Assembly: GCF_018424695.1 (NCBI RefSeq)
Contig: NZ_QTNQ01000011.1
Span: 1-64,000, forward strand
Source: Vannielia litorea
GTDB lineage: Bacteria > Pseudomonadota > Alphaproteobacteria > Rhodobacterales > Rhodobacteraceae
DNA length: 64,000 bases
Direction: 5' to 3'
Each line of letters begins with the position of its first letter. Position 1 is the stretch's first letter. The position numbers and the translations under genes are program-made. The notes under the pieces are model-generated. The model had not been told where the DNA came from. It made no database searches and worked only from the letters and a program-made list of their open reading frames with translations. Shown one piece after another: positions 1,146-51,523 of this stretch.

Positions 1146-1636
1146 TGCAGAGATCCCCAATCCTTAACCGTTCGCACACTTAGTCGGATGCGCACTGATG
1201 CAAATCTAATCCCGTAAATTCATTAGCTTCTAGGTAAACAACAGCTTGAGGCGCTTCAAGGGCAGGTTTATGGCACTTTACGTAACACTCCGCGCGCGTC
1301 TATCGTTTCGCTCAACGCCCCGTCGCGCCATGGCCCTTCGCGACTCTTGGTTGTAACCGCACCAACGGAGCGGCAAGGGCTTTCACCCGATTAGAGCACA
1401 TCCCCAAGCGCCAGATTTCCTGGCCGTCCGCTGGTTGGCAGGCGCCGGACCTGACCCACGCAAGGCGCACCGCGCACCACCGCGTGGAGCGCTGTAGCTC
1501 CGCCAAGCCGGGCGGTCCGGGATCGAGGGCAGAGGGCAGAGGGCAGAGGGCAGAGGGCAGAGGGCAGACTAAGGTCAAATGGCTGCCCCGGGGCAAGTGT
1601 GGTATCCAGCAGGCAGGCAAGCGCTGGGAGGACGCG
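1146..1636. other. Intergenic region between divergent vgrG and the AcoR-type regulator
   Basis: This 491-base gap carries the 5' regions of two divergent genes. The part near 1180-1280 is relatively AT-rich for this genome and contains an imperfect inverted repeat (CTTGA at 1245-1249, TCAAG at 1256-1260). The part near 1525-1566 holds a heptanucleotide tandem repeat. I could not assign a convincing promoter or a gene. The reading frame of the downstream regulator is open upstream to 1484, but that extension is made of repeat-encoded RAEGRGQ units and lacks a good ribosome binding site. Confidence 0.6.
1525..1566. repeat. Six perfect tandem copies of the 7-mer GAGGGCA
   Basis: Six head-to-tail copies of GAGGGCA run without mismatch from 1525 to 1566 and end in a partial GA. 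The array lies 70 bases before the preferred start of the AcoR-type regulator at 1637. Because the unit is not a multiple of three, gain or loss of a copy would change the frame of any protein read through it. It would also change spacing in the leader. Confidence 0.9.
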
Positions 1637-3379
1637 ATGCTCGACCTGAACCACGTGGATGAAATCGACCGCGTGCTGCGCGGGCTCGACACCGGGCGTG
1701 ACAGGCTGGTGGCCGACAGCTGGCAGCGCTGCGTCGAAAGCTACGGGCTGGACCCGTCGCGCCCCGACCCGGCCCATATCGTCACCGAGGCGGAGTTTCG
1801 CGAACACCGTGAGCAGTCCGAGCGGCTCATCGCCACCGCGCGCTCGGGCCTACAGGCGCTGTTCCGGCAGGTGGCGGGGCAGAACTACGTGCTGCTGCTG
1901 GCTGATGCCAAGGGTGTCTGCGTGGATTTCTTCGGCGACCCGCGCTTCGAGGACCAGTTGCGCCAGGCCGGGCTCTACCTTGGCTCGAACTGGACCGAGG
2001 ATCTGGCGGGCACTTGTGGCGTGGGCTCCTGCATCGTGACCGGCGAGGCAGTGACGATCCACCAGAGCGACCATTTCGGGCTGGCGCACACGCCGCTCTC
2101 CTGCACCTCGGCCCCCATCCATGACACAATGGGCGAGCTGGTGGCGGTGCTCGACATTTCGCTGCTGCGCTCGCCCTCGCCGAAATCCTCGCAGAACCTC
2201 GCGATGAACCTCGTCACCGCCTCGACGCGGCGGGTCGAGATGGCCAACCTGATGGCAACCACCCGGCGGGACTGGGTGCTGCGCGTGTCCACCAGCCCCG
2301 AGTTTCTGGAAGTGGACCCGGAGGCGGCGGTGGCGCTGGATGGATCAGGGCGGATCGTGGGCATGACCTCGGGCGCGCGGCGGGCGCTGGACCCGGAGGG
2401 CGAGGGCCGCCTCATCGGCACCCGGATTGACGCTCTCATGGAGCTCACGGTGGACGACCTGCCCGACCTGATGCGCGGCCGCCCGAGCGAGGAGCGGGTG
2501 CTGCGCCTGAAAGACGGGCGCGGCATTTTCGGCCATGCCATCGCACCGCAGGCCCCGCTGGGCGGGGCCGCTGTGCGCCGCCGCGATGCCGCCCTGCCCG
2601 GCCCGTTGGGCAGCTTTTCCGGCAAGGATCCGGCACTGGAGCGGATGCTGTCGCAGGCCCAGCGGCTGGCAAGAACACAGGTGCCGCTGCTGATTACGGG
2701 CGAGACGGGCACCGGCAAGGAAAAGCTCGTGCGCGCAATCCATATGGCGGGTGCAGGCCAACGCGGCTTTTACCTGCTGCGCTGCGCCGGGCAGCCTGAC
2801 CTTGGCGCGTTGCGAGAGGCGGCGGCGGGCACGCTGTTCTTGCGCGGGGTGGAAGACCTTGCGCGCGAAGCACAGGCGGAGCTGATCGCCCTGCTCGACG
2901 CGCGGACCGACCTGCGCGCCATCGCCTCCTGCCGCTGCGCGCCCGCCGACCTGGCGCAGTTGCTGCGCCCCGATCTGTTCCACCGACTGGCGGGCGCGCG
3001 GCTGGCCCTGCCCGCTCTGCGGCACCGCGCCGATATGGATTGGCTGATCGACCGGCTGCTGCGCCGCCGCTGCACCGATGACATCCACCTTTCACCCGCA
3101 GCGCGGGCGGAGCTGAAGGCGCGCCCCTGGCCGGGCAACATCCGCGAGTTGGAGCAGGTGCTGGAGGTGGCCGTTGCGCTATGCGAGGGCAAGGTGATCG
3201 ACCTGCCGGACCTTCCCGCGCTTCCCCCCGTCGCCCCTTCAGGCGCTCCGGAAGAAGACCTCGAGGTGCTGCTGGCGGCCTGTGGCTGGAACATGGCGCA
3301 GGCGGCGCGACGCCTCGGGGTCAACCGCTCCACCGTGCTGCGGCGGATGCGCAAGGCCGGGCTCGCCGCGCCGCAATAA
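1637..3379 (+). CDS. AcoR-type transcriptional regulator, degenerate sigma-54 activator fold
   Basis: A 580-residue regulator in the order GAF-like sensor (roughly 65-175), AAA+ domain (about 330-510) and Fis-type helix-turn-helix (about 553-576). The HTH reads MAQAARRLGVNRSTVLRRM. Walker A is intact (GETGTGKE near 355). The GAFTGA loop that contacts sigma-54 is absent: the segment between LRCAG and GTLFL is only about 18 residues. The Walker B position reads TLFLRG (399-404) instead of TLFLDE. By family knowledge this argues for a regulator that does not remodel sigma-54 holoenzyme. The start at 1637 has GGGAGG six bases upstream; the in-frame extension to 1484 crosses the heptamer repeat and is rejected. 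The monooxygenase immediately downstream is its likely target. Confidence 0.8.
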   Translation: MLDLNHVDEIDRVLRGLDTGRDRLVADSWQRCVESYGLDPSRPDPAHIVTEAEFREHREQSERLIATARSGLQALFRQVAGQNYVLLLADAKGVCVDFFGDPRFEDQLRQAGLYLGSNWTEDLAGTCGVGSCIVTGEAVTIHQSDHFGLAHTPLSCTSAPIHDTMGELVAVLDISLLRSPSPKSSQNLAMNLVTASTRRVEMANLMATTRRDWVLRVSTSPEFLEVDPEAAVALDGSGRIVGMTSGARRALDPEGEGRLIGTRIDALMELTVDDLPDLMRGRPSEERVLRLKDGRGIFGHAIAPQAPLGGAAVRRRDAALPGPLGSFSGKDPALERMLSQAQRLARTQVPLLITGETGTGKEKLVRAIHMAGAGQRGFYLLRCAGQPDLGALREAAAGTLFLRGVEDLAREAQAELIALLDARTDLRAIASCRCAPADLAQLLRPDLFHRLAGARLALPALRHRADMDWLIDRLLRRRCTDDIHLSPAARAELKARPWPGNIRELEQVLEVAVALCEGKVIDLPDLPALPPVAPSGAPEEDLEVLLAACGWNMAQAARRLGVNRSTVLRRMRKAGLAAPQ

Positions 3380-3535: not shown

Positions 3536-5335
3536 ATGCTCGATTCAACCATTGCCGACCAGACCCAGGCCTTTCTGGACGAGTTCGGCGCCGCGCTGGA
3601 GCAGGGCGACATTGCCCGCGCGCGCGACATGTTTCAGGACGACTGTTACTGGCGTGACCTCGTGAGCTTCACATGGAACCTCAAGACCGTGGAAGGGAAG
3701 GACCAGGTGGAAGACATGCTGAAGCACCAGCTTACCACCACGAAGCCCAGCGGCTGGAAACTGGCGGAGGGCGAGGTGCCCACCGAGGAAGGCGGGGTGA
3801 CGACCGCCTGGATCACCTTCGAAACCGCCGTTGCGCGCGGCTACGGCCTGCTTCGGCTCAAGGACGGCAGGATCTGGACGCTGCTCACCACCATGGTCGA
3901 ACTTAAGGGCCACGAAGAGCCCAAGGGCTTCAACCGCCCGCTTGGCGCGAAGCATGGCGCGGCGAAGAACCAGGAAACCTGGAAGGAAGAGCGCGCCCGC
4001 GAGGCCGCCGAACTGGGCTACACCGAACAGCCCTATTGCCTGATCATCGGCGGCGGACAGGGCGGCATCGCCATGGGCGCGCGGCTGCGCCAGCTCGGTG
4101 TGCCCACCATCATCGTCGAGCGGAACGAGCGCCCCGGCGACAGCTGGCGCAAGCGCTACAAGTCGCTCTGCCTGCATGATCCGGTCTGGTACGACCACCT
4201 GCCCTACATCAAGTTCCCCGAGAACTGGCCCGTCTTCGCCCCCAAGGACAAGATCGGCGACTGGCTGGAGATGTACACCAAGGTCATGGAGCTGAACTAC
4301 TGGACGAAGACCACCGCCAAATCGGCCAGCTTTGACGAGGAGGCGGGCGAGTGGACGGTGGTGGTGGACCGCGACGGCGAAGAGGTGGTGTTGAAACCCA
4401 AGCAACTGGTGATGGCCACCGGCATGTCGGGCAAGAAGCGGATGCCGGAGTTTCCGGGCATGGACGTGTTCAAGGGCGTGCAGCAGCACTCCTCCGAGCA
4501 TGAAGGCCCCGACAGATGGGCGGGCAAGAAGGTTGTTGTGGTCGGCTCCAACAACTCGGCCCACGATATTTGCGCCGCGCTCTGGGAGCATGACGCCGAT
4601 GTGACGATGGTGCAGCGCTCCTCCACCCATATCGTGCGCTCGGACTCGCTGATGGAGATCGGCCTCGGTGCGCTCTACTCGGAGGAGGCCGTGCAGAACG
4701 GGGTAACCACCGAAAAGGCCGACCTGATCTTCGCCTCCCTGCCCTACCGAATCCTGCACGAGTTCCAGATCCCGGCCTATGAGGCGATGAAGGAACGCGA
4801 CAAGGACTTCTACGAAGGGTTGGAGAAAGCGGGCTTCTGGCTCGACTGGGGCGATGACGGCTCTGGCCTGTTCATGAAGTACCTGCGCCGCGGCTCGGGC
4901 TATTACATCGACGTGGGCGCGAGCCAGCTCATCATCGACGGCAAGGTGAAGCTGAAGCGCGGGCAGGTGGAACGGCTGGATGAAACCGGCGTCATCCTTG
5001 ATGACGGCACCCACCTCGACGCCGACCTGGTGGTCTATGCCACGGGATACAACTCGATGAACGGCTGGGTCGCCGACCTGATGGGCCAGGAGATGGCCGA
5101 CCGCCTCGGCAAGTGCTGGGGCCTCGGCTCCGACACCACCAAGGATCCTGGCCCGTGGGAGGGCGAGCAGCGCAACATGTGGAAGCCGACGCAGGTGCCC
5201 AACCTGTGGATGCACGGCGGGAACCTGCACCAGTCGCGGCACTACTCGCAGTTCCTTTCTCTGCAGATAAAGGCGCGGATGGAGGGCATCTCCACGCCTG
5301 TCTATGGCTTGCAGGAGGTGCACCACCTGAGCTGA
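3536..5335 (+). CDS. NTF2-like/flavin-containing monooxygenase fusion
   Basis: A 599-residue protein. Residues 1 to about 150 look like an NTF2/SnoaL-type fold (FLDEFGAALEQGDIARARDMF, DDCYWRDLV). The rest is a class B flavoprotein monooxygenase. It has an FAD-binding GGGQGG near 172, an FMO-like signature FKGVQQH near 312, a second dinucleotide motif GSNNSAHD near 337, and YATGY near 501. The last residue of the FMO signature is His where Tyr or Phe is usual. Such enzymes use NADPH and O2 to oxygenate a carbonyl, sulfur or nitrogen atom; the substrate cannot be read from sequence. The start at 3536 follows GGGAGG at good spacing. It lies just after the AcoR-type regulator and before a solute-import gene. 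Confidence 0.85.
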   Translation: MLDSTIADQTQAFLDEFGAALEQGDIARARDMFQDDCYWRDLVSFTWNLKTVEGKDQVEDMLKHQLTTTKPSGWKLAEGEVPTEEGGVTTAWITFETAVARGYGLLRLKDGRIWTLLTTMVELKGHEEPKGFNRPLGAKHGAAKNQETWKEERAREAAELGYTEQPYCLIIGGGQGGIAMGARLRQLGVPTIIVERNERPGDSWRKRYKSLCLHDPVWYDHLPYIKFPENWPVFAPKDKIGDWLEMYTKVMELNYWTKTTAKSASFDEEAGEWTVVVDRDGEEVVLKPKQLVMATGMSGKKRMPEFPGMDVFKGVQQHSSEHEGPDRWAGKKVVVVGSNNSAHDICAALWEHDADVTMVQRSSTHIVRSDSLMEIGLGALYSEEAVQNGVTTEKADLIFASLPYRILHEFQIPAYEAMKERDKDFYEGLEKAGFWLDWGDDGSGLFMKYLRRGSGYYIDVGASQLIIDGKVKLKRGQVERLDETGVILDDGTHLDADLVVYATGYNSMNGWVADLMGQEMADRLGKCWGLGSDTTKDPGPWEGEQRNMWKPTQVPNLWMHGGNLHQSRHYSQFLSLQIKARMEGISTPVYGLQEVHHLS

Positions 5336-5580: not shown

Positions 5581-7146
5581 ATGCAACGCAAATTCGTAAC
5601 ACCCCGGTCCGGCACATCGCGCCGGGCCTTCCTGGCCGCTGGTGCCGCCCTCACCGGGTTGGCCGCAACCGGGATCGGCACGCGCCCGGCCCGCGCGCAA
5701 TCCCGCGGCGGCACGATCCGGGTGGCCAAAGGCCATGGCCAAACCAACGACACGCTCGATCCGGGCACGTTCATCAACGGCTTCACCGTGGCCCTCTCCT
5801 ACGGCATCCACGGCTTTCTCACCGGTGTCGCCACCGACGGGTCGGTTGAGGCCGGTGTGGCCGAAAGCTGGGAGGCCGACGACACCGCCACCGTCTGGCG
5901 CTTCAAGATCCGTTCCGGCGTGGAGTTCCACTCCGGCAAGCCGCTGACGGTGGAAGACGTGGTGAACTCGATCAACCACCACCGGGGTGAGGATTCGACC
6001 TCTGCCGCCAAGCCCATCGTCGCCGGGATCACCGATATTCGCACCGAGGGTGAGGATGTGGTGGTGTTCGAGCTCGAGTCCGGCAACGCCGACTTCCCCT
6101 TCGTCTTCACCGATTATCACCTCGCCATCCTGCCCACGAAGGACGGCGCGCCGGACTGGCAATCGGGCGACGGCTGCGGCCCCTACAAGCTGGTGGAGTT
6201 CAACCCCGGTGTCATCGCCCGCTTCGAGCGGCACCAGAACGACTGGAACCAGGATCGCGGCTTCTTCGACGGGGTCGAGATGCTTTCGGTGGTGGACCTG
6301 AACGCGCGGACCACGGCGCTGATTTCGGGCGATGTGCACTCGATCGACAAGCTCGACCTCAAGACGGTGGGGCTGCTGGGCCGCCGCCCGGGCATCGAGA
6401 TCAACTCCATCGCCGGGCCGCAGTATTACACCTTTGCTGCCCACACCAACACCGCGCCCTATGACGACGTGAACGTGCGGATGGCGCTGAAGCACGCGAT
6501 CAACCGCGAAGAGCTGATCGAGAAGGTGCTCTTCGGCCATGGCACCGTGGGCAATGACCAGCCCATCGGCCCGAGCTACCGCTTCCACAATGCCGATCTG
6601 CCGCAAACGCCCTACGACCCGGACAAGGCGAAGTTCTACCTCAAGGAGGCCGGCCTGGACGGGCTGAACGTGACGCTGGCCGCCGCCGACGCCGCCTTTC
6701 CCGGCGCCATCGACGCGGCCCAGCTCTACCAGAACTCGGCACAGGCCGCGGGCATCGACCTAACGGTCAACCGCGTGCCCAATGATGGCTACTGGGCCGA
6801 CATCTGGCTCAAGAACCCGTTCTGCGCCGTCTACTGGGGCGGGCGCCCGACCGAAGACCAGATCTTCTCGACCGCCTATGCAGAGGGTGCGGCCTGGAAC
6901 GAGACCAAGTGGTCGAACGCGCGCTTCAACGAGCTTCTGGGGCAGGCCCGCGCCGAGCTGGACGAAGACAAGCGGCGGGCGATGTACTACGAGATGCAGG
7001 AGCTCGTGGCGACCGATGGCGGCTCGGTCCTGCCGATGTTCGCCAACTTCGTCTTCGCCAACAGCGAAGAGATCGTGCACGGCGACATGGCCTCCAACTA
7101 CGATGTCGACGGCGAGCGCTGGATGGAGCGTTGGTCCTTCGCCTGA
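5581..7146 (+). CDS. Family 5 ABC transporter solute-binding protein, Tat-exported (copy 1)
   Basis: A 521-residue periplasmic binding protein of the DppA/OppA type. The N-terminus carries a twin-arginine signal (SRRAFL, 13-18) with likely cleavage after ARA at 39. Typical family features follow: VAESWEADDTATVWRFKIRSGVEFHSGKPLTVEDVV and VRMALKHAINREELIEKV. It is clearly paralogous to the second binding protein at 8945; for example, both contain ARFNELL or ERFNELL followed by a KAELDE-like stretch. Family members deliver peptides, opines, nickel complexes or other small solutes, so the ligand is unknown. The start at 5581 follows AGGGAATTCGAC. It is probably served by the permeases and ATPase at 10694-14407. 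Confidence 0.88.
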   Translation: MQRKFVTPRSGTSRRAFLAAGAALTGLAATGIGTRPARAQSRGGTIRVAKGHGQTNDTLDPGTFINGFTVALSYGIHGFLTGVATDGSVEAGVAESWEADDTATVWRFKIRSGVEFHSGKPLTVEDVVNSINHHRGEDSTSAAKPIVAGITDIRTEGEDVVVFELESGNADFPFVFTDYHLAILPTKDGAPDWQSGDGCGPYKLVEFNPGVIARFERHQNDWNQDRGFFDGVEMLSVVDLNARTTALISGDVHSIDKLDLKTVGLLGRRPGIEINSIAGPQYYTFAAHTNTAPYDDVNVRMALKHAINREELIEKVLFGHGTVGNDQPIGPSYRFHNADLPQTPYDPDKAKFYLKEAGLDGLNVTLAAADAAFPGAIDAAQLYQNSAQAAGIDLTVNRVPNDGYWADIWLKNPFCAVYWGGRPTEDQIFSTAYAEGAAWNETKWSNARFNELLGQARAELDEDKRRAMYYEMQELVATDGGSVLPMFANFVFANSEEIVHGDMASNYDVDGERWMERWSFA

Positions 7147-7188: not shown

Positions 7189-8445
7189 CTAGCGCAGCAG
7201 GGCCTCTTCGAAGGGAAACTGCGACAGAAGCTCGATGCCGGTCTCGGTTACAAGCACCTGCTGCTCCAGCTTCACCCCCTCCTTGCCGCCTTCCTGGCCG
7301 ATGAAGCTCTCGACGCAGAGTGTCATGCCCGGAACGATCTCGCCGTCGTAGCCCGCATCGGGAAAATCGCCGCGGTGGTAGAGATACGGATACTCCCCCG
7401 TCATTCCGCACCCATGGGCCGAGAGATAGTAGCGGTGCGCGTGGTACTTCTCGGGAATGTCCCATGCGCCCTCGGCGTAGTCGCGAAACGACATGCCGGG
7501 GCGCAGGATGCCCATGTTGTGATGCACCTGCTCATGCGCCACGCGATACAACTCGCGCTGGGTAGCCGAGGGGGTTCCAGGGCCGGAAAAGAAGGTGCGG
7601 GAAAAGTCCGAGTAATAGCCGTGGCAGCCCACCACATCGGTGTCGAGCGCGATCAGCTCGTTCTCTCCGATCACGTTGGAGGAGGTTTCCTGAAACCAGG
7701 GGTTGGTGCGCGCGCCTGCGTTCAGCAGGCGGGTTTCGCAATAGTCCCCGTTCTGGGCGATGACGGATTGATGCAGCACGCTCCAAAGCTCGGCCTCGGT
7801 CAGGCCCGGGCGGATCGCCTCGCGCAGCTTGCCCACGCCCACCTCCGTCGCCCGCAGGCTGGCGCGCACGCATTTCATCTCTTCGTCCGACTTAACCGCG
7901 CGCGCCATTTCCACCGGTTCCTGCGCATCGACGATGTGCAGCCCCTGCTCGGCCAGCGCAATCGCAACGCCCGCGTTCAGCCGCTCCAGCCCGAGGGTTG
8001 CGCCCGGCCCCAGCAGGCTGCCGATGAGGTCGGCCATCTCGGCGGCCCAGGCCCGCTCGCGCGCAGCAATCTGCAGGCCCGCCGCCACGAAGCTTGCGGT
8101 GCGGGAGGGGCGCACCTCGTCCACCGTTTCATAGCCCGCGCCAAGGTGCTCGGCCCCTGTGAACTCGAAGAGGATCGAGCGCTCGGCTGTCAGCAGCAGG
8201 TAGCGCGCGGGGGCGTTGCGCTGGGAAAATACCTGCATGTTCCGGGTGCCCGTGGCGTAGCGGATGTTCACCGGGTCGGTCAGGATCACCGCGCCGATGC
8301 CGCGCGCCGCCATTTCCGCGCGCACGCGCCCAAGGCGATAGAGCCGCACCGCCTTCAGGTCGATCCCCTCGCTCTCGGGTGCGCGGTCCAGCAGGGCGAT
8401 GTCCGAGAGGTCGGTGCGCTCGGCGTGCCAATCGAAAGTTGCCAT
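7189..8445 (-). CDS. M24 metallopeptidase-fold protein, DddP-like
   Basis: A 418-residue pita-bread-fold protein. The candidate metal ligands are D268, D270, D280, H344, E379 and E394. As I recall the published DddP (DMSP lyase) numbering (D295, D297, D307, H371, E406, E421), every spacing is identical with a constant offset of 27. The surroundings also match (ETRLLNAGARTNPWFQE, PVNIRYATGTRNMQVF), and Y366 of DddP is kept as Y339. However, the position of the proposed catalytic base D377 is Gly350 here (HGCGMTGEYP). DddP ancestry is therefore likely, but DMSP cleavage is doubtful; amidase, peptidase or another lyase activity is possible. GGGGAG precedes the ATG at 8445. It sits convergent between two transporter binding proteins. 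Confidence 0.82.
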   Translation of the reverse strand: MATFDWHAERTDLSDIALLDRAPESEGIDLKAVRLYRLGRVRAEMAARGIGAVILTDPVNIRYATGTRNMQVFSQRNAPARYLLLTAERSILFEFTGAEHLGAGYETVDEVRPSRTASFVAAGLQIAARERAWAAEMADLIGSLLGPGATLGLERLNAGVAIALAEQGLHIVDAQEPVEMARAVKSDEEMKCVRASLRATEVGVGKLREAIRPGLTEAELWSVLHQSVIAQNGDYCETRLLNAGARTNPWFQETSSNVIGENELIALDTDVVGCHGYYSDFSRTFFSGPGTPSATQRELYRVAHEQVHHNMGILRPGMSFRDYAEGAWDIPEKYHAHRYYLSAHGCGMTGEYPYLYHRGDFPDAGYDGEIVPGMTLCVESFIGQEGGKEGVKLEQQVLVTETGIELLSQFPFEEALLR

Positions 8446-8944: not shown

Positions 8945-10555
8945 ATGACCAAAAAGAACCAACAGCTGATTGACCGCCTTGCGGATGAGGCGCGCCACGG
9001 GCGCATCTCCCGTCGCGGTTTCATGAACACGGCGATCGCCGCCGGCCTCACGGCCACCACCGCCACCGGGCTATGGACCTCCAAGGCCCAGGCCCAGCCC
9101 AAGAGCGGCGGTCACTTCCGCTGGGGCCTGCATGACGGCAACACGGGCGACACGCACGATCCGGGCACCTACCTGACCCGGACGATGATCTTCCTCGCCC
9201 ACACCCATCGCTCCTACCTGACGATGATCAACGGCGACGGCTCTCTTGGCCCGGACCTGGCCGATGAGTGGAGCGCAAGCGAGGACGCCTCGGAGTGGAC
9301 CTTCGAGATCACGCCCAACGCGGGCTTCCACTTTGCCGGGCGCGCAGTGACGGCCAATGACGTTGTGGCCTCGCTCAACCACCACCGCGGCGACGACTCG
9401 ACCTCGGCCGCCAAGGCCCTGCTGTCGGATGTCACCGACATCACCGCCGAGAGCGACACCACTGTGAAGGTGACCCTGTCGGGTGGCAACGCGGACTTCC
9501 CCTGGCTGATGACCGACTATCACCTCGCGATCTGCCCGGCCAACGACGACGGCACGATTGACTGGCAGTCTGGCGACGGCTCGGGGCCCTACAAGATCGA
9601 CGATGGCGAAATGGGCGTGGGCTTCACCCTTTCGCGCCATGATGGCTGGCACCGCGAAGGCGCCTATTTCGACTCCGTCGAAATCATCACGCTGAACGAC
9701 CCCAACGCGCGCCAGACCGCGCTTGTCACCGGCGATGTGGATGCGGTTTCGCTGATCGAGCTGAAAACGATGGCGCTGCTCCAGCGCGATCCCAACATCA
9801 CGATCCACAACATCCCTTCGGCGGGCGCGATCACCCTGCCGATGTTCTGCGACACCGCACCGTTCGACAACCCGGACGTGCGCAACGCGCTGAAACTGGC
9901 GATGAACCGCGACGAGATCATCGAGAAGATCGCCTTCGGCGCGGCCACCAAGGGCAACGACTTCCACCATTCGCCCGCCCAGCCGTTCTGGCCCGAGGAC
10001 ATTCCGCAGCGCGAGTATGACCCGGACCAGGCCAAGAGCCTGCTGGCGAAAGCCGGGGCCGAGGGCCTTACCGTGAGCCTCTCGACCGCCGACAGCGTCT
10101 ATGCCGGCGCGGTGGACATGGCCGTGCTCTACGCCGAACAGGCGAAGGCCGCGGGCATCAACATCAATGTCGTACGCGAGCCGAACGATGGCTACTACTC
10201 GGACGTCTGGCTGAAGAAGCCCTTCTGCCTCGTCTCCTGGGGCGCCCGCCCCACGCCGGACGTGATGTACACGTTGGCCTACAAGGACGACGCGGCCTGG
10301 AACGAGAGCCACTGGCAGAACGAGCGCTTCAACGAGCTGCTCCTTCAGGCCAAGGCCGAACTCGACGAGGGCCTGCGCTCGGAGATGTATCGCGAGATGG
10401 CGATGCTTGCGAAGGACGACGGCGGCACGATCATCCCGTTCTTCAACAACTTCGTCTACGCCAACCGCGCCAACGTGGGCACCCCCGAGAACCTGGCCGC
10501 GAGCTGGGAATGCGACGGGGCCCGTGCCGCCAGCCGCTGGTGGTTCAACAGCTAA
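8945..10555 (+). CDS. Family 5 ABC transporter solute-binding protein, Tat-exported (copy 2)
   Basis: A 536-residue binding protein with a Tat signal (SRRGFM, 22-27) and likely cleavage after AQA at 50. Its body follows the copy at 5581 closely: DEWSASEDASEWTFEITPNAGFHF, VVASLNHHRGDDSTSAAKAL and ENLAASWECDGARAASRWW near the C-terminus. The start at 8945 follows GGGGAGAAATC; the extension to 8915 is unlikely. It is the first gene of the complete importer that follows. The strong hairpin directly after the stop probably keeps binding-protein mRNA in excess over permease mRNA, as is common in such operons. The substrate is unknown. Confidence 0.9.
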   Translation: MTKKNQQLIDRLADEARHGRISRRGFMNTAIAAGLTATTATGLWTSKAQAQPKSGGHFRWGLHDGNTGDTHDPGTYLTRTMIFLAHTHRSYLTMINGDGSLGPDLADEWSASEDASEWTFEITPNAGFHFAGRAVTANDVVASLNHHRGDDSTSAAKALLSDVTDITAESDTTVKVTLSGGNADFPWLMTDYHLAICPANDDGTIDWQSGDGSGPYKIDDGEMGVGFTLSRHDGWHREGAYFDSVEIITLNDPNARQTALVTGDVDAVSLIELKTMALLQRDPNITIHNIPSAGAITLPMFCDTAPFDNPDVRNALKLAMNRDEIIEKIAFGAATKGNDFHHSPAQPFWPEDIPQREYDPDQAKSLLAKAGAEGLTVSLSTADSVYAGAVDMAVLYAEQAKAAGININVVREPNDGYYSDVWLKKPFCLVSWGARPTPDVMYTLAYKDDAAWNESHWQNERFNELLLQAKAELDEGLRSEMYREMAMLAKDDGGTIIPFFNNFVYANRANVGTPENLAASWECDGARAASRWWFNS

Positions 10556-10693: not shown

Positions 10694-11650
10694 ATGGGTG
10701 ACATCCTTCCATTGGTGGCTAAGCGTCTCGGCTTCGGGCTGCTGACGCTTCTCGTCATCTCTGTCATCATCTTCTTCATGGTCGAACTGCTGCCCGGCGA
10801 CATCGCCCAGGCGGTGCTCGGCCAGGGCGCGACCGAGGAAAACCTCGCCGCACTTCGCGAGCGCATGGGCCTGAACGACCCGGCCATCGTGCGCTACTTC
10901 GACTGGCTGAGCGGCGCCGTCGTGGGCAACTTCGGCGAATCCATCGTTACCGGCGAGCGGGTGAGCTCGATCATCACCGAGCGCTTCGTGAACACGCTGT
11001 TCCTCGCGGCCTACGCCGCCGTCATCGCCGTGCCCTTCGCGATCCTGCTGGGCATCATCGTGGCCCTGCTGCGCAACACCCTGTTCGACCGGGTGGCCAA
11101 CGTTCTGACGCTCACCTCGATCTCCAGCCCCGAGTTCTTCCTCGGCTACATCCTGATCCTCTACCTCGCGGTGAAGACAAGCATGTTCCCCGCCATCGCC
11201 AGCCTCAGCGGCGATCTCAGCTTCGGCGAACTTCTGCACCGCACCTTCCTGCCGGCGCTCACGCTGGTGCTCGTGGTGACCGCGCACATGATGCGGATGA
11301 CGCGGGCGGCGATCATCAATCTTCTGGCCTCGCCCTACATCGAGATGGCGCGGCTCAAGGGCACGCCGCCCTGGAAGGTCATCGTGAAGCACGCCCTGCC
11401 CAACGCCTGGGCGCCGATCATCAACGTGGTCGCGCTGAACCTGGCCTACCTGATCACCGGCGTTGTGCTGGTCGAGGTGGTCTTCGTCTACCCGGGTATC
11501 GGCCAGTCGCTGGTGGACGCGGTGTCGAAGAGGGATTTCCCGGTGGTTCAGGCCTGCTGCCTGATCTTCGCGGCGACCTTCATCCTGCTCAACCTTGCAG
11601 CCGACGTTGGTGCGATCCTCACCAACCCGCGTCTGCGGCACCCCAAATAA
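10694..11650 (+). CDS. DppB-type ABC transporter permease
   Basis: A 318-residue inner-membrane permease of the oligopeptide class. It starts with LVAKRLGFGLLTLLVISVIIFFMVELLPGD, the standard DppB/OppB opening. The soluble segment LRERMGLNDPAIVRYFDWLSG, five further hydrophobic segments and the coupling loop (ASPYIEMARLKGTPPWKVIVKHALPN) follow. It should heterodimerise with the permease at 11663 and dock on the double ATPase at 12731. The start is supported by CAAGGGGGAC before the ATG. There are 12 bases to the next gene, so they are co-transcribed. Confidence 0.93.
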   Translation: MGDILPLVAKRLGFGLLTLLVISVIIFFMVELLPGDIAQAVLGQGATEENLAALRERMGLNDPAIVRYFDWLSGAVVGNFGESIVTGERVSSIITERFVNTLFLAAYAAVIAVPFAILLGIIVALLRNTLFDRVANVLTLTSISSPEFFLGYILILYLAVKTSMFPAIASLSGDLSFGELLHRTFLPALTLVLVVTAHMMRMTRAAIINLLASPYIEMARLKGTPPWKVIVKHALPNAWAPIINVVALNLAYLITGVVLVEVVFVYPGIGQSLVDAVSKRDFPVVQACCLIFAATFILLNLAADVGAILTNPRLRHPK

Positions 11651-11662
11651 GGAGGCGGGACC

Positions 11663-12727
11663 ATGGGACTTTTCGTCATTCTCTACTTCGCCTTCCTGAT
11701 CATCGCCTCGTGTCTCGCGGCCTATTTCGAGAAGCGCGGGCCTTTCATCCTGCTGTTCTCGCTGACGTTGGTGTCCTTCGTTCTGGGCATCGTCGGCGGG
11801 GCGGGCGCGCTGAGGTTCGTGGCCATTTCGGCGGCCGTTCTGGCCTTCGCGGCTGGCATCTCTTACGCGTTCAAGGAGTTCCTCATCATCATCGCGCCGA
11901 AGAACACCGCCAAGGAGCTGAAGACCGCTCCGCTGACGGCAGCCTTCGGGATGTTCGTGATCTTCACCTACGCCATCGCAGGCATCTTCGCGCCATGGAT
12001 CGCGCCGCACGGCGAGAGCGAGGTGATCTCCTCGGCCTTTGCGCCTGCGGATGCCAACATGCTGCTTGGGGCCGACCAGCTCGGGCGCGACATGTTCAGC
12101 CGCATCATCTACGGCGCGCGCAACACCGTGGGCCTCGCCCTGCTGGCCACCATCGCGGCCTTCGTGATGGGGGCACTGGCCGGCCTTCTCGCCGCCGTCA
12201 AGGGCGGCTGGTTCGACCAGTTCATGGGGCGCTTCGCAGATGTCATCATGTCGATCCCCTCGCTGATCTTCGCCCTGCTGATGCTGTCCATCTTCGGGCC
12301 GCAGATCGGGGTGATTATCGTCGCCGTGGCGATCATCTACGCGCCCCGCGTCTTCCGCCTCACGCGGGCGGTCGCGGGCAACGTGGTGGTGATGGACTAT
12401 ATCGAGGCCGCCAAGCTGCGCGGCGAGGGGGACTGGTATCTGATCCGCAAGGAGATCCTGCCCAACTCCACCGCACCGCTTGTGGCCGAGTTCGGGCTGG
12501 AGTTCTGCTTCGTGTTCCTGCTCGTCGCGGGTCTGTCGTTCCTCGGCCTCGGCATCCAGCCGCCCACCGCGGATTGGGGTTCGATGGTGCGTGAAAACGC
12601 CACGCTGATCTCATTCGGCGATATCACTCCGCTCATCCCCGCCGCCGCCATCGCACTGCTCACAGTGGCCGTCAATTTCGTTGTCGACTGGATGCTGTGG
12701 CGTTCCTCCGGTCTGAAGGAGATGTAA
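11663..12727 (+). CDS. DppC-type ABC transporter permease with extra N-terminal membrane segments
   Basis: A 354-residue permease. From about residue 85 it follows DppC/OppC: PLTAAFGMFVIFTYAIAGIFAPWIAPHGE, LGADQLGRDMFSRIIYGARNT, and coupling loop DYIEAAKLRGEGDWYLIRKEILPN. Before that are about 80 residues with three hydrophobic stretches (roughly 1-20, 28-48 and 52-76) that ordinary DppC proteins of about 300 residues lack. The ATG at 11663 follows AAGGAGGCGGGACC, so the extension is genuine. It may alter membrane topology or recruit a partner; its function is unknown. Confidence 0.9.
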   Translation: MGLFVILYFAFLIIASCLAAYFEKRGPFILLFSLTLVSFVLGIVGGAGALRFVAISAAVLAFAAGISYAFKEFLIIIAPKNTAKELKTAPLTAAFGMFVIFTYAIAGIFAPWIAPHGESEVISSAFAPADANMLLGADQLGRDMFSRIIYGARNTVGLALLATIAAFVMGALAGLLAAVKGGWFDQFMGRFADVIMSIPSLIFALLMLSIFGPQIGVIIVAVAIIYAPRVFRLTRAVAGNVVVMDYIEAAKLRGEGDWYLIRKEILPNSTAPLVAEFGLEFCFVFLLVAGLSFLGLGIQPPTADWGSMVRENATLISFGDITPLIPAAAIALLTVAVNFVVDWMLWRSSGLKEM

Positions 12728-12730
12728 TTC

Positions 12731-14407
<1,677 letters not shown>

Positions 14408-19599: not shown

Positions 19600-19761
19600 T
19601 GAAGCGCCCCCCAGCACGGGATGCTCGATCTCAATGGCCCCAATGCGAATAGCCTACGCCGACCGGTGCAAAAAACAAGCTGTCCGTGCACCCGCTGTAT
19701 TCATGACACCCGGGGTTCGCTACGATCCGGCAATACCGTGGAACAGGTTGAAACGCGGGCA

Positions 19762-30579: not shown

Positions 30580-31617
30580 TCAGCCTGTCGGGGTGATCTC
30601 CCGCTCGGTGAGGCCCGCCAGAATGTCATCCCTGGACAGCTGGCCGACGAGCGCGCCGTTCTCCGTGACGCCCACCGGCTCGGCCTGGGCAGTGACCGTC
30701 TCCAGCCCGTCCCGCACGAGGCTGTCGGCGTCGATGGTGACGGAGGGCGTGCCAGCGACAGGCTGCATGAGATCGCGCGCGCGAAGCACACCGAGGGGAT
30801 TCATGTGCTGGACGAATTCGGCGACGTAGTCGTTCTTCGGATCGCGGAAGATGTCTTGCGGCGCGCCGGTTTGCACAATGCGCCCGCCCTCCATGATCGA
30901 GATGTTGTTGCCCAGCTTGAAGGCCTCGTCGAGGTCATGGCTGACGAAGATGATGGTGCGCTTGAGGCGCTGTTGCAGCTCCAGAAGCTCGTCCTGCAGC
31001 TTGGAGCGGATCAGCGGGTCGAGCGCCGAAAAGGGCTCGTCCATGAGCAGGATCGGGGCGTCGGTGACAAAGGCGCGGGCGAGGCCGACGCGCTGCTGCA
31101 TCCCGCCCGAAAGCTCGCCCACCTTGCGCTCGGCCCAGTCGGTGAGGCCGACAAGGGCCAGTTGTTCGTCGATCTTGGCGTTGGCTTCGGCTTTCGGCAT
31201 CCCGGCCAGCTCCAGCCCGAGCCCGACATTCTCGCGGACAGAGCGCCAGGGCAGCAGGCCGAACTGCTGAAAGACCATGGCCACGTGATGCATCCGGATG
31301 CGGCGGAGCGTGGGTTTGTCGGCGTTGGTGACATCGACCATGCCCTGACCGTCGTTCACATGAACCGCGCCGCGCACCACCGGGTTGAGCCCATTCACGG
31401 CGCGCAGCAGGGTGGATTTGCCCGAGCCGGAGAGGCCCATGAGCACGAGGATTTCGCCTTCCTGCACGTCGAGCGAGCAGTTGTGCACGCCGAGCACCTG
31501 GTCGGTTTCCTGCTGGATTTCGCCGCGCTCCCGGCCTTCGTCCATCAGCGGCAGGGCAACTTCCGGCTTTTCGCCAAAGACGATGGAAACGTTATCGATT
31601 TTAACGGCTGTTGTCAT
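30580..31617 (-). CDS. choV: Choline/betaine ABC transporter ATP-binding protein
   Basis: A 345-residue ATPase of the ProV/ChoV osmolyte class. Walker A is GLSGSGKST (61-69), the Q-loop is MVFQQFGLLPWRSVRENVG, the signature is LSGGMQQR and Walker B is LLMDEPFSALDPL. A C-terminal CBS-like regulatory part follows (GVLRARDLMQPV to LVGQLSRDDILAG). The N-terminal stretch up to residue 50 with GEKPEVALPLMDEGRERGEI is characteristic of ChoV. The start overlaps choW by 4 bases. Together with choW and choX it imports choline for betaine synthesis by the divergent bet genes. Confidence 0.94.
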   Translation of the reverse strand: MTTAVKIDNVSIVFGEKPEVALPLMDEGRERGEIQQETDQVLGVHNCSLDVQEGEILVLMGLSGSGKSTLLRAVNGLNPVVRGAVHVNDGQGMVDVTNADKPTLRRIRMHHVAMVFQQFGLLPWRSVRENVGLGLELAGMPKAEANAKIDEQLALVGLTDWAERKVGELSGGMQQRVGLARAFVTDAPILLMDEPFSALDPLIRSKLQDELLELQQRLKRTIIFVSHDLDEAFKLGNNISIMEGGRIVQTGAPQDIFRDPKNDYVAEFVQHMNPLGVLRARDLMQPVAGTPSVTIDADSLVRDGLETVTAQAEPVGVTENGALVGQLSRDDILAGLTEREITPTG

Positions 31618-32453
31618 TTGCGGGCCCCCACGTTGAGCATCCGGTCGAGCATGATGGCGACCACGACGATGACGAAGCCGCTCTCGAAGCCCAGTGCCGT
31701 GTTCACCTGCCCTAGCGCGCGCATCACCGGCACGCCGAGGCCGTTGGCGCCCACCAGCGCGGCGATGACGACCATGGAAAGCGAGAGCATGATGGTCTGG
31801 TTCAGGCCCGCCATGATTTGCGGGAAGGCATAGGGCAGTTCGACTTTCCAGAGCGTCTGGCGCGGCGTCGCGCCGAAGGCCCGGGCCGCCTCCAGCAGCG
31901 TTTGCGGGGTTGAGGCGACGCCAAGGTATGTCAGCCGGATCGGCGCGGGCAGCACGAAGATAACCGTGGCGATGAGGCCGGGCACCATGCCGATGCCGAA
32001 AAAGACAATCGCGGGGATCAGGTAGACGAAGGTGGGGAGGGTCTGCATCAGGTCGAGCACCGGGCGCAGGTAGGTATAGAGCTTGGGCCGGTGCGCGGCG
32101 GCGATGCCGATGGGCACGCCGATGGCCATGCAGACAAGGCAGGCCGAGAGCACGAGCGTGAGGCTTTCGGTTGTTTCCTCCCAGTAGCCCTGATTGAGGA
32201 TGAAGAGGAAGCCGAGGAAGACGAAGAGGCAGGTTTTCCAGCTCTTCTGAAGGAACCACGTAGCGGCAACGAAGGCTGCGATGACGATGATCGCCGGCGG
32301 TTCTTGCATGACCCACAGAATGGCGTCGATCATCGCCTCCATCACGGCGGCAAAGCCATCGAGCAGCACTTCGCCGTGGTCGCGGATCCAGTCGAACACC
32401 ACCTTGGCGCCCTTGCCCACGGGTATCTTGTAGTCTTCAAGCCAGTCTTCCAC
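31614..32453 (-). CDS. choW: Choline ABC transporter permease
   Basis: A 279-residue ProW/ChoW-type permease. An N-terminal soluble stretch (WLEDYKIPVGKGAKVVFDWIRDHG) precedes about seven hydrophobic segments. The coupling loop is EAARAFGATPRQTLWKVELPYAFPQIMAGLNQ. It forms the membrane channel of the choline importer. The end overlaps choV (ATGA). The 111-base gap from choX contains a terminator-like hairpin, which would lower permease expression relative to the binding protein. Confidence 0.94.
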   Translation of the reverse strand: MEDWLEDYKIPVGKGAKVVFDWIRDHGEVLLDGFAAVMEAMIDAILWVMQEPPAIIVIAAFVAATWFLQKSWKTCLFVFLGFLFILNQGYWEETTESLTLVLSACLVCMAIGVPIGIAAAHRPKLYTYLRPVLDLMQTLPTFVYLIPAIVFFGIGMVPGLIATVIFVLPAPIRLTYLGVASTPQTLLEAARAFGATPRQTLWKVELPYAFPQIMAGLNQTIMLSLSMVVIAALVGANGLGVPVMRALGQVNTALGFESGFVIVVVAIMLDRMLNVGARK

Positions 32454-32515
32454 GGCCCGGTTCTCCCCATTGTCCCTGCTTGGCCTGCGCTCGCGCGGCG
32501 CCTTTCATCCAGGCC

Positions 32516-32548
32516 AAAAGAGAACCGCCCGCGAGAGGCGGGCGGTTC
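32516..32548 (-). terminator. Intra-operon terminator between choX and choW
   Basis: On the reverse strand an 11-pair perfect stem (GAACCGCCCGC with GCGGGCGGTTC, 32522-32532 and 32538-32548) with a 5-base loop is followed by TTCTTTT. It lies 16 bases after the choX stop codon. It mirrors the arrangement found between the second binding protein and its permease at 10574. Confidence 0.8.
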
Positions 32549-32564
32549 GGTCTTCAGTCTGCGA

Positions 32565-33485
32565 TCAGAGCCCCAGCGCGGCGCTGACGGCGGCCTTGGC
32601 ATCGCTGCCGTCCTTGGCTGTCACGCCGTCGAGCCAGGTGTCGAGCACATCGGCGTTGGCCTTCAGCCACTCTTCGGTGGCGTCCGCCGGATCGGCGCCG
32701 TCATCGAGGATCTGGCCCATGATGCCGTTTTCCATCTCCAGCGTGAAATCCATGTTGGCAAAGAGCTTTCCGACATTCGGGCACTCCTCGGAGTAACCCT
32801 GGCGGGTGACGGTGTGCACCACACCCTCGCCGCCGAAGAAGTCTTCACCGCCGGGCAGATACTTGAGCTCGAAATTGGCATTCATCGGGTGGGGTTCCCA
32901 GCCGAGAAAGACCACGTCCTCCTGATCGTCATAGGCGCGGGCGACCTGGGCCAGCATCCCCTGTTCGGAGCTTTCGACCACCTCGAAGTCGGCATCGCCG
33001 AGGCCCATCTTGTTCTCTTCGATCAGCGAGACGAGATAGGCGTTGCCTTCGTTGCCCGGCTCGATGCCATAGATCTTGCCTTCCAGCTCTTCGGCGAACT
33101 TGGCGATATCGCCATAGCTCTGTAGACCCTTCTCGTAGGTATAGGCGGGCACGGCGAGGGTGTATTTGGTGCCCTCGAGGTTGACGTTGATGGCCTCGAT
33201 CTCGCCGCTCTCGATGTAGGGGCCGATGGCAGCAGATTGGGCCGGCATCCAGTTGCCCAGGAACACATCGACATCATCGCTTTCCAGCGAGGCAAAGGTG
33301 ACGGGCACCGAAAGAATCTTGACGTCCACCTCGTAGCCCAGCGCTTCGAGCACGTGCTTGGCGGTGGCCGTGGTGGTGGTGATGTCGGTCCAGCCCACGT
33401 CGGACATGACGACGGTGTCGCACTCGGCCCAGGCCGCAGAGGCGGCACAGAGGGCAATTGCGGAGATGGCTGCGGTGGTTTTCAT
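32565..33485 (-). CDS. choX: Choline ABC transporter substrate-binding protein
   Basis: A 306-residue periplasmic protein with a 20-residue Sec signal (cleavage after SAAWA). The mature part shows the ChoX pattern: CDTVVMSDVGWTDITTTTATAK, VDVFLGNWMPAQ, GIEPGNEGNAYL and VFLGWEPHPMN, with Trp and Tyr residues positioned to form the aromatic box that grips the trimethylammonium head. The start at 33485 follows GGGAGACC. It is divergent from betI across an operator-like palindrome. Confidence 0.94.
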   Translation of the reverse strand: MKTTAAISAIALCAASAAWAECDTVVMSDVGWTDITTTTATAKHVLEALGYEVDVKILSVPVTFASLESDDVDVFLGNWMPAQSAAIGPYIESGEIEAINVNLEGTKYTLAVPAYTYEKGLQSYGDIAKFAEELEGKIYGIEPGNEGNAYLVSLIEENKMGLGDADFEVVESSEQGMLAQVARAYDDQEDVVFLGWEPHPMNANFELKYLPGGEDFFGGEGVVHTVTRQGYSEECPNVGKLFANMDFTLEMENGIMGQILDDGADPADATEEWLKANADVLDTWLDGVTAKDGSDAKAAVSAALGL

Positions 33486-33514
33486 GTTGGTCTCCCTGTT
33501 CGTCGGAGTGGTAG

Positions 33515-33549
33515 GTTCATTTTGTTGATTGACCAATCAAACAATGAAC
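33515..33549. promoter_or_regulatory. BetI-type operator between choX and betI
   Basis: An inner inverted repeat TTGATT-GACC-AATCAA (33525-33540) is nested in outer arms GTTCATT (33515-33521) and AATGAAC (33543-33549). It lies 29 bases upstream of choX and 37 upstream of betI, where a TetR-type repressor could shut both promoters. BetI is known to repress bet genes and to release DNA on binding choline. The assignment to BetI is inference from position and symmetry. Confidence 0.7.
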
Positions 33550-33586
33550 GTTTATCCCCGTATTGCAAGCCCTTTTGGAGTCGGCG

Positions 33587-34159
33587 ATGAGTGTGGAACC
33601 CAAACGCAGAGCCCAGTTGGTGGAGGCGACGATACATGAGATCGGCGCCAATGGCTCGCTCGATGTCACCGTTGGCAAGATTGCCAAACGCGCCGGCGTT
33701 TCGGCCGCGCTGGCCTTCCACTACTTCGGGGACAAAGAGCAGCTCTTCCTCGCCGCGATGCGCCATGTGCTTACGGTCTACGGCGCCGAAGTGCGGGGGG
33801 CGCTGGTGGCCGCGCCGGGCCCGCGAGAGCGCGTGGAGGGCATCTTGAGGGCCAGCTTCTCAAGCACCAATTTCCGCCCCGAGGTGATCTCGGCCTGGCT
33901 CAACTTTTACGTTCTGGCCCGCCGCAACGAAGAGGCGCGGCGACTTCTGTCGGTCTACCATCGCCGGTTGCGCTCGAACCTCATGCACGGGCTGCGCCCG
34001 CTCGCCGCAGAGGCCTCGCAGGCCATTGCAGAGCGAATCGGCGCGGTGATCGACGGCCTCTACCTCCGCTACGCCTCCAACCCAGATGACATGACGGGCC
34101 GCACCGCGACCGACCATGCCCTAGCTACCCTGGCCAATGAACTCGGAGCCCTGGCATGA
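33587..34159 (+). CDS. betI: TetR-family repressor BetI
   Basis: A 190-residue TetR regulator starting MSVEPKRRAQLVEATIHEIGANG. The helix-turn-helix is VGKIAKRAGVSAALAFHYFGDKEQLF. The ligand domain contains FRPEVISAWLNFYVLARRNEEARRLLSVYHRRLRSNL, the typical BetI pattern. It senses choline and controls choXWV and betICBA. The ATG at 33587 follows GGAG. The end overlaps betC by 4 bases, so it is the first gene of the bet operon. Confidence 0.93.
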   Translation: MSVEPKRRAQLVEATIHEIGANGSLDVTVGKIAKRAGVSAALAFHYFGDKEQLFLAAMRHVLTVYGAEVRGALVAAPGPRERVEGILRASFSSTNFRPEVISAWLNFYVLARRNEEARRLLSVYHRRLRSNLMHGLRPLAAEASQAIAERIGAVIDGLYLRYASNPDDMTGRTATDHALATLANELGALA

Positions 34160-35664
34160 GCCGCCCCAATTTTCTCATCATCATGGTCGATCAGCTGAAC
34201 GGCACGCTCTTTCCCGACGGGCCTGCGGACTGGCTCCATGCCCCCAACCTCAAGCGGTTGGCGGCGCGGTCGACGCGGTTCCGCAATGGCTACACCGCCT
34301 CCCCGCTCTGCGCCCCCGGGCGGGCCAGCTTCATGTCTGGGCAACTGCCCTCGGTGACCGGCGTCTATGACAATGCCGCCGAATTTCCCGCAGGGCTGCC
34401 GACCTACGCCCACCACCTGCGCCGCGCGGGTTACCAGACCTGCCTTTCGGGCAAGATGCATTTCGTCGGTCCCGACCAGATGCACGGCTTCGAAGAGCGG
34501 CTGACGACCGATATCTACCCCGCCGATTTCGGCTGGACCCCGGACTACCGCAAACCCGGCGAGCGGATCGACTGGTGGTATCACAACATGGGTTCGGTCA
34601 CCGGCGCAGGCGTGGCCGAAATTTCCAACCAGATGGAATATGACGACGAGGTGCAATACCACGCCGTGCGCAAGCTCTATGATCTTGCGCGCGGGCATGA
34701 TGAGCGCCCGTGGTGCCTGACGGTGAGCTTCACCCACCCGCATGATCCCTACGTGGCCCGCAAGCGGTTCTGGGATTTGTACGAGGACTGCGAGCATCTG
34801 CTGCCCGAGGTCGGGGCCTTTGATTACGAAGATCAGGACGCCCATTCGAAGCGGATTTTCGACGCGAACGACTGGCGCAGCTTCGACATCACCGAAGAGG
34901 ATATCCGCCGCTCGCGCCGCGCCTATTTTGCCAATATCTCTTACCTTGACGAAAAGGTGGGCGAGCTGCTCGACGTGCTGGAGGCAACACGGCAGGAGGC
35001 GACCATCCTCTTCGTCTCCGACCATGGTGACATGCTCGGCGCACGCGGCCTCTGGTTCAAGATGACCTTCTACGAAGGCTCGGCGCGGGTGCCGGTGATG
35101 ATCGCCTCGCCCGAGATGGCGCCCGGACTGGTGGAGAGCCCGGTGAGCAACATCGATATCTGCCCCACACTCTGCGACCTCGCCGGGGTGAGCATGGAAG
35201 AGGTCATGCCCTGGACGGCGGGCGAGAGCCTGAAGCCGCTCGGTCAGGGGCAGCAGCGCGAGAGCGCCGTGGCGATGGAATATGCGGCCGAGGCTAGCTA
35301 TGCGCCTTTGGTTTCGCTCCGTAAGGGCCGCTACAAGCTGAACCTCTGCGCGCTTGACCCGGATCAGCTCTTTGATCTGCAGGCCGACCCGCACGAGCTG
35401 GAAAATCTGGCAACCGATCCGGCCCATGCTGAAGCTTATGAGGCGCTGAAGGCCGAGGCGGCGACGCGCTGGGATCTGGCGCGCTTCGACGAGGAGGTAC
35501 GCCGCTCTCAGGCGAAGCGCTGGGTCGTCTACGAAGCGCTGCGCAACGGCGAATATTACCCGTGGGATTACCAGCCGCTGCAAAAGGCCAGCGAGCGCTT
35601 CATGCGCAACCACATGGACCTCAACACCGTCGAAGAAGACGCACGCTTTCCGCGTGGCGAGTGA
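34156..35664 (+). CDS. betC: Choline-sulfatase
   Basis: A 502-residue type I sulfatase that hydrolyses choline-O-sulfate to choline and sulfate. The active-site motif is C-A-P-G-R with Cys52, which is converted to formylglycine. Metal ligands are visible in IIMVDQLNG and VSDHGDMLG. The C-terminal segment ([19 protein letters not shown]) is characteristic of choline-sulfatases. No signal peptide is present, so the enzyme is cytoplasmic, as expected for BetC. It overlaps betI and is followed 7 bases later by betB. Its presence means sulfated choline is a likely environmental source. Confidence 0.95.
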
Positions 35665-35671
35665 GATATCA

Positions 35672-50508: not shown

Positions 50509-50671
50509 TGGGGGCACGCGCTCCGGGCTCAGGTTGCTTGGCGCCACTGTCACCAAATCGCGCCGCCCGTGCCACGGGGTTTCGACACGTTGGAGCCAAA
50601 AGCGACATTCGCAGGCCATTGCGACCTTTGGGCTTTTGCCTTTTGGCCCCGCATCCTCTAACCAGCGCGCC

Positions 50672-51523
50672 ATGGACGTATGCACCACCATTCCGGACTT
50701 GCGCCGGGTTGTCAGGGGAGTGCGTGCAGGGGGACACAAGGTGGGCTTCGTGCCGACCATGGGATACCTGCACGCGGGCCATATGCGGCTTGTCGAAGAG
50801 GCACAGGCGCGGGCCGAGGCGGTGGTGGTTTCGATCTTCGTGAACCCCACGCAGTTCGGCGATCCGAAAGACCTTGAGACCTACCCGCGCAACACCGAGC
50901 GCGATTTGCAGATGTTGCGGGATGCCGGGGTTAACGCGGTACTGATGCCGCAGGTGGCCGACATCTACCCGGACGGGGCCGAAACCGTGGTGGAAACCGA
51001 GCAACTGGCGAACATGCTCCACGGCGCGGTGCGCCCCGGGCACTACAGGGGCGTCTGCACCGTGGTCGCAAAGCTCTTCAACATCGTCCAACCCGATTTC
51101 GCCTGTTTCGGCGAGAAGGACTATCAGCAGCTCCAGATCATCCGAACGATGGTGCGCGACCTGCACTTTCCGCTGGAGATCCTGCCCGTGCCCACGGTGC
51201 GCGAGGCGGATGGGCTGGCCATGTCGTCCCGCAACGCCCGCCTTACGCCCGAAGATCGCGCCGCGGCCGTGGTGCTGAGCCGGGCGCTCGACGCGGCGGA
51301 GGACGTGGACGGGACGGTAGAGGAGATCTCGGAGGTGATCCGATCGGTCATCGCCACCGAGCCACGGGCCGCGCTGCGCGGGCTCGACATTACCGAGGCC
51401 CGCAGCCTTGCCCCGGTCTCCGGCCAACCCCGAACCACGCTTGCCGTGATGATCTCCGCCGAGTTCGGCGGTATCCTGTTGATCGACCAGCGAGAAATCA
51501 CGCCCAAAGGAGCACCCGCATGA
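50672..51523 (+). CDS. panC: Pantothenate synthetase
   Basis: A 283-residue enzyme that condenses pantoate and beta-alanine with ATP. It shows [19 protein letters not shown] (HxGH nucleotide motif), [21 protein letters not shown], the central [27 protein letters not shown] and [18 protein letters not shown], the KMSKS equivalent. The ATG at 50672 is the natural start although the ribosome binding site is weak. The end overlaps panB by 4 bases. Confidence 0.95.

Follow-up and report, generated by a model that had tools for sequence, protein, structure and literature searches.

A 64,000-nucleotide stretch of the Vannielia litorea genome (hereafter the window) encodes a protein that resembles the DMSP lyase DddP and carries glycine (Gly350) opposite its proposed catalytic base, Asp377. 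We consider, with a probability of about 0.5, that this protein belongs to an orthologous family of its own, close to DddP but not part of it, and that it is a dinuclear-metal enzyme of the "pita-bread" type, which would cleave a C–N bond of a betaine-like carboxylate. Sequence comparisons show the fold, six metal ligands, the loss at position 350 of the Asp of DddP or the His of M24 peptidases, the fixation of this change throughout the family, and further changes in the pocket. A betaine-like substrate is slightly favored, and the breakage of a C–N bond, the option favored from the fold and the gene neighbors, is a rather doubtful assignment. The gene is read from 8445 down to 7189, and the GC contents at codon positions 1, 2, and 3 of this strand are 0.68, 0.45, and 0.85, so that the plus-strand frame over the same interval is regarded as a shadow. 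Creatinase_N and Peptidase_M24 domains were detected in the 418-residue product, the latter (PF00557) at 107 bits against a gathering cut-off of 23, which places it in the M24 superfamily. The gene and its surroundings are listed in Table 1.

Table 1. Location of the DddP-like enzyme gene, two of its codons, and other genes in the window.
Feature	Position	Strand	Basis and remarks
DddP-like M24-fold enzyme gene, Gly type, 418 aa	7189..8445	-	Profiles, alignments, trees, predicted structure
Gly350 codon, opposite DddP Asp377	7396..7398	-	Computed from gene start
Arg76 codon, opposite His of most Asp-type relatives	8218..8220	-	Computed from gene start
SBP1, family-5 solute-binding protein, probable accessory	5581..7146	+	PF00496 (SBP_bac_5); convergent with enzyme gene
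SBP2, family-5 solute-binding protein	8945..10555	+	PF00496 (SBP_bac_5); divergent from enzyme gene; 71–85% identical homologues at five loci
Dpp-type ABC permease 1	10694..11650	+	82–90% identity at the same five loci; name from sequence and neighbors
Dpp-type ABC permease 2	11663..12727	+	79–88% identity at the same five loci; name from sequence and neighbors
Dpp-type double ABC ATPase	12731..14407	+	PF00005 twice, oligo_HPY
SnoaL + FMO-like flavoprotein, system membership uncertain	3536..5335	+	Profile match; 73% homologue in control stretch L184
Sigma-54 activator, DhaR/AcoR type, system membership uncertain	1484..3379	+	Profile matches
Choline-sulphate-to-betaine genes, context on the same contig	30583..38787		NCBIfam cut-offs passed

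The resemblance to DddP is far beyond chance. The best four sequence matches in the PDB were all DddP (E 1e-66 to 1e-67), and the next was a prolidase (7e-13). The closest solved structures to the predicted model of the window protein (pLDDT 85.9, pTM 0.85) were again DddP (Z 45.6–45.9), followed by an Xaa-Pro dipeptidase (Z 34.8), and Foldseek also placed DddP first. An earlier note, made from the letters of this DNA, had listed D268, D270, D280, Y339, H344, G350, E379, and E394 as active-site positions, and all eight were located there. By a constant offset of 27, which the same note had given, they correspond to D295, D297, D307, Y366, H371, D377, E406, and E421, which are named for RdDddP in PMC4108388. 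Y339 is hence the equivalent of DddP Y366, and an HMMER alignment to RlDddP (4rzy) placed Gly350 opposite D377. In the same paper, Asp377 was favored as the base of RdDddP, with Tyr366 named as an alternative (PMC4108388).

The NCBIfam DddP model NF043017 matched the window protein at E 2e-89 despite a score of 300.4 bits, which is half its cut-off of 600, and ten other relatives scored 285 to 428 bits. A second gene of the same genome (G000:C174) gave 722.6 bits, and the organism appears from this match to carry a genuine DddP elsewhere in its genome. In a 74-row tree, a DddP clade of 13 rows (100/100) contained both solved DddPs and G000:C174 and excluded the window protein, which was placed in a separate 32-row clade (100/99) with members carrying Gly. 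A 54-row tree set 40 DddP-like rows apart from 14 ordinary M24 outgroup rows, whose branches are long, and grouped 23 Asp rows including DddP with a single Gly row, L114 (24 rows, 91/96); two further Gly rows, L117 and L152, were left without a resolved placement at the base. The window protein thus fell neither inside the DddP clade nor among ordinary M24 rows, in agreement with the expectation of the earlier note, and DddP appears to form a branch apart from the Gly clade. The description of the protein as "DddP-derived" is not supported by this analysis, because DddP is nested with further Asp-bearing families in a set from which the Gly clade is excluded (91/96, a moderate support, with long outgroup branches). 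The Asp of the 377 column was kept in 53 of 64 relatives below 66% identity, approximately 40 of which lie outside the DddP clade; judged from this alignment, Asp at this column is no hallmark of DddP. Membership in DddP was ruled out by the model score, the trees, and the pocket residues, and the window protein is very probably not DddP.

All 88 rows at 66% identity or higher share Gly350, although some of these rows appear to be one genome entered twice (e.g., L004/L042 and L096/L104), and this residue is therefore no sequencing oddity. They came from taxa including Roseovarius, Roseibium, Rhizobiales, Burkholderiales, Pseudomonas, and Streptomyces. The orthologue of Roseovarius pacificus DSM 29589 is 84% identical to the window protein. 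The same column in the 64 more distant relatives held 53 Asp, 8 Gly, 2 Asn, and 1 Val. Further positions differ between Gly-type rows and the others. Arg76 was found in 17 of 17 Gly-type rows, while the 56 other rows had His (52) or Arg (4); position 278 was Tyr or Phe in 17 of 17 and Cys in 46 of the other 56; position 235 was Tyr (13), Phe (3), or Met (1) in the Gly type and Trp (54) or Tyr (2) in the others. The tree requires Gly and non-Gly to have switched twice, and position 76 to have changed three times; the coupling of Gly350 with Arg76 hence rests on approximately two to three events, which are too few for an independent-pairs test to be meaningful. The six metal ligands, Tyr339, Trp250, and Glu253 were invariant in a 40-sequence alignment, and the wider set gave two exceptions, L159 without Tyr339 and L012 without one of the Asp ligands. 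Many residues of the pocket region were also fixed across the 88 rows. With respect to these alignments, the active site of the Gly-type family looks remodelled, not decayed. One relative with a stop codon in its match (L008) was excluded from the structure alignment, and L001, which duplicates the window, was removed as well; four plasmid loci were also among the dropped rows.

The neighborhoods of 80 out of 162 relatives, all of them close orthologues, were sampled. The commonest neighbor by clustering was a divergent LysR gene (38 of 80 loci). A gene for MTTB (PF06253) was located within 2 kb in 7 of 80 loci, belonging to Oricola (two), Ahrensia, a Rhizobiaceae bacterium, Mesorhizobium, Aliiruegeria, and Tropicimonas. 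It was directly followed by an FAD + GcvT demethylase-like gene at five of the seven. An OpuAC gene was found nearby in 6 of 80 loci (Caballeronia, Burkholderia, Paraburkholderia, and Pseudomonas), four of which also have a choline-dehydrogenase-like gene. The single OpuAC gene that was scanned (L102) matched the choline-binding family best, at 116.6 bits under a cut-off of 379, and the single choline-dehydrogenase-like gene scanned (L092) scored above a subfamily cut-off and below that of betA. The Dpp-type transporter of the window recurs at L039, L043, L063, L064, and L075 (71 to 91% identity), and in L039 and L043 an MTTB gene separates SBP2 from the enzyme gene. Genes for an FAD oxidoreductase, an aldehyde dehydrogenase, a DapA-like protein, and a GntR protein form a block near the enzyme gene in L039, L043, L045, L046, and L059, together with a GlxA gene in four of the five. 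A hydroxyproline link was tried and rejected; the aldehyde dehydrogenase was best matched by a PuuC-like family, below its cut-off, and no family names hydroxyproline. In total, MTTB, DMGDH, OpuAC, BetA, or SBP5 was detected in the examined flanks, some of them short, of 21 of the 80 loci, and none of the five in the equally examined flanks, again some of them short, of the remaining 59. Eight further Gly-type loci (L130–L137) gave a DMGDH match in one. The Gly-type homologue on pSymA of S. meliloti (L150) lies within a run of MTTB, GlxA, M24, isochorismatase, and glycine-betaine ABC genes, and an Asp-type homologue of Paraburkholderia directly follows a Rieske-type pair of GbcA-like (389 of 670 bits) and GbcB-like (339 of 500 bits) genes. 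These neighbors of relatives point to quaternary-amine catabolism. A cobalamin-dependent MtgB-type system was reported to demethylate glycine betaine in marine bacteria (PMC12478193).

Two loci of other relatives were observed in passing. In L156 (G122:C7:626000-645900), five DddP-like M24 matches and an MTTB gene occur in 20 kb, and both Asp and Asn are seen among the paralogues in the Asp377 column. L172, in a very small genome (G066, 1.4 Mb), is a single Asp-type DddP-like gene whose product is 40% identical to the window protein, and the matches listed for that genome include no MTTB.

The window locus itself has no MTTB gene; two are present in the genome, both on other contigs. Approximately 22 kb from the enzyme gene on the same contig, the choline-sulphate-to-betaine set (choline ABC transporter, betI, choline sulfatase, betB, and betA) scored above the NCBIfam cut-offs for 7 of 7 genes. 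A GcvT-domain gene (48007-50850, minus strand) encodes a large protein with similarity to sarcosine oxidase alpha, which is 33% identical to a DMGDH-like probe. Both fit quaternary-amine catabolism, though they lie 22 to 40 kb from the enzyme gene. Elsewhere in the window, a truncated minus-strand gene at the contig edge (3-1160) contains a phage-baseplate-hub domain (PF05954), which we take to be that of a type VI VgrG-like spike. At 16138-22353, a gene for a 1159-residue fusion of polysaccharide deacetylase and family-2 glycosyltransferase is divergent from a DUF3131 gene, and this divergent pair probably consists of exopolysaccharide genes.

Twenty control stretches from the same genomes contained no MTTB at 36% identity or higher (one at 27%) and no match to DMGDH, OpuAC, SBP5, BetA, Rieske, or GbcB; they gave one FMO, one AcoR, one GlxA, and three ABC-ATPase matches. 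Across 32 whole genomes, at least 12 of 54 non-Gly, non-DddP relatives were located within 2 kb of MTTB against 0.73 expected, a count in which several class labels were assigned without reading residue 350, tandem copies were counted singly, and MTTB entries were taken from contigs that carry relatives. In the same genomes and among the matches listed, Gly-type genes were within 2 kb of MTTB in 0 of 13 cases and within 5 kb in 1 of 13, and DddP genes within 2 kb in 0 of 4. From the locus and whole-genome counts, the MTTB association is considered to be strong for the wider family and some Gly-type lineages, and not general for the Gly type.

For the proposed betaine enzyme, the substrate would be a small carboxylate that bears a betaine-type quaternary ammonium group, of which a C–N bond would be broken. 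The dimetal center may bind the carboxylate or supply a hydroxide, and the cation and substrate would be held by Trp250 and Tyr339, both of them conserved. Arg76, on the N-terminal domain that in RdDddP lines the active-site tunnel of the partner subunit, might bind a carboxylate. The product would then feed N-demethylation. Of the suggestion in the earlier note that this is an enzyme for another imported solute, the part concerning a solute other than DMSP is probable. Both solute-binding-protein genes flanking the enzyme gene, which that note had pointed out, were verified to carry SBP_bac_5 and their products share 47% identity, but the import of the substrate by this Dpp-type ABC system is put forward only as a possible step. 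Peptides are the most usual cargo of family-5 transporters, which counts against the betaine reading. The 59 of 80 loci lacking quaternary-amine neighbors, the divergent LysR gene as the commonest neighbor, the low Gly-type count near MTTB in whole genomes, the absence of MTTB from the window locus, and the few tree events behind the Gly350–Arg76 coupling weigh against it as well.

The same transporter leads to a first alternative, namely an Xaa-Pro or imido peptidase acting on imported peptides, to which the M24 membership and the adjoining family-5 binding proteins would be suited. HGxGxxxHExP is the motif that holds the catalytic His of M24 Xaa-Pro peptidases. This His, observed in the Gly350 column of 6 of 14 ordinary M24 rows, is Gly in the window protein, which also has NPWFQE where five ordinary M24 rows have NPHPH, and the tree separates it from such rows, though on long branches. 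An ordinary M24 peptidase was ruled out by motif and tree, with the long branches of that tree in mind, and the peptidase alternative is judged improbable. An enzyme similar to creatinase or ectoine hydrolase, acting on a guanidino, ureido, or cyclic amide solute, also has a low probability. It would agree with the structural similarity to DoeA (Z 33.5) and creatinase and with the isochorismatase-type gene that follows the S. meliloti homologue, but the identity to both enzymes is approximately 20% and DddP is far closer. The ectoine hydrolase models scored 47.8 of 613 bits (TIGR02993) and 48.5 of 575 (NF038259), which does not identify the window protein as DoeA; the comparison with creatinase was made by fold match alone (Z 32.9 at ~20% identity). 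Another reading would retain DMSP (or DMSOP) lyase activity despite Gly350, with Tyr339 or a hydroxide on the metal acting as the base. The DddP fold and ligands are kept, and the equivalent of Tyr366, the alternative base named in PMC4108388, is present; yet the proposed base is missing, residues 73, 76, 235, and 278 of the pocket are changed, the protein scores half the DddP cut-off and lies outside the DddP clade, and the genome already has a DddP, which together leave little room for a second lyase. A catalytically dead or regulatory relative, as Gly at the proposed base position might suggest, is very unlikely given the six ligands invariant in 40 sequences and the many pocket-region residues fixed in 88 rows, which would be needless for a dead enzyme.

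The betaine reading, if true, would make the abundant DMSP lyase DddP one member of a larger group of betaine enzymes, indicating a possible origin of its activity, and would supply an enzyme for an unassigned step by which quaternary amines are turned over in marine and soil environments. As judged from the alignments and trees, the Gly-type family is widespread, separate from DddP, and equipped with a rebuilt active site; it probably functions in the breakdown of betaine-type osmolytes. A wider proposal is speculative: the Gly-type clade and the surrounding Asp-type families may form a large unrecognised radiation of betaine enzymes that cleave onium osmolytes beside cobalamin- or Rieske-type N-demethylases, from which DddP was recruited for DMSP, and the Gly/Arg variant may perform a chemistry without the Asp base that is undescribed in this fold. 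Judged by title and the start of the abstract, no paper on an M24 protein in betaine or MttB clusters was found among the matches listed, in a search that covered subscription journals only in small part, and none of the papers found there connects this family with a function. Among marine ddd genes, dddP was reported to account for ~65% (PMC10686828). If dddP is counted by E-value alone, members of the Gly-type family could be included, because the DddP model matches the window protein so significantly.

Among known proteins, DddP (RlDddP, 4rzy; RdDddP, 4b28; NF043017) shares with the window protein its fold, the six metal ligands, the Tyr366 equivalent, and an NPW motif. It differs in its separate clade, an identity of 32–36%, the half-cut-off score, Asp377 in place of Gly350, and His, Trp, and Cys at positions 76, 235, and 278, which are Arg, Tyr, and Tyr in the window protein. 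The S. meliloti pSymA protein L150, annotated as "Xaa-Pro peptidase family protein", is 46% identical, has Gly at 350 and Arg at 76 as well, and belongs to the same Gly clade as L007 and L122; it is distinguished from the window protein by the motif HGVGMHGETP and by the genes it is grouped with, namely MTTB, GlxA, isochorismatase, and those of a glycine-betaine ABC system. A further M24 family of Rhodobacteraceae (L196–L200), 24–26% identical to the window protein over most of its length, has the motifs NPHPH and HGLGLALHERP and the ligand columns D-L-C-H-E-E, a pattern in which the metal site is possibly altered. The M24 Xaa-Pro peptidases and aminopeptidase P have the pita-bread fold (Z 28–35) and most ligands in common with the window protein, whereas their identity is ~20% and their catalytic His column is Gly in the latter. 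Creatinase and DoeA, likewise ~20% identical, are non-peptidase members of this fold (Z 33–34), and act on small-solute substrates.
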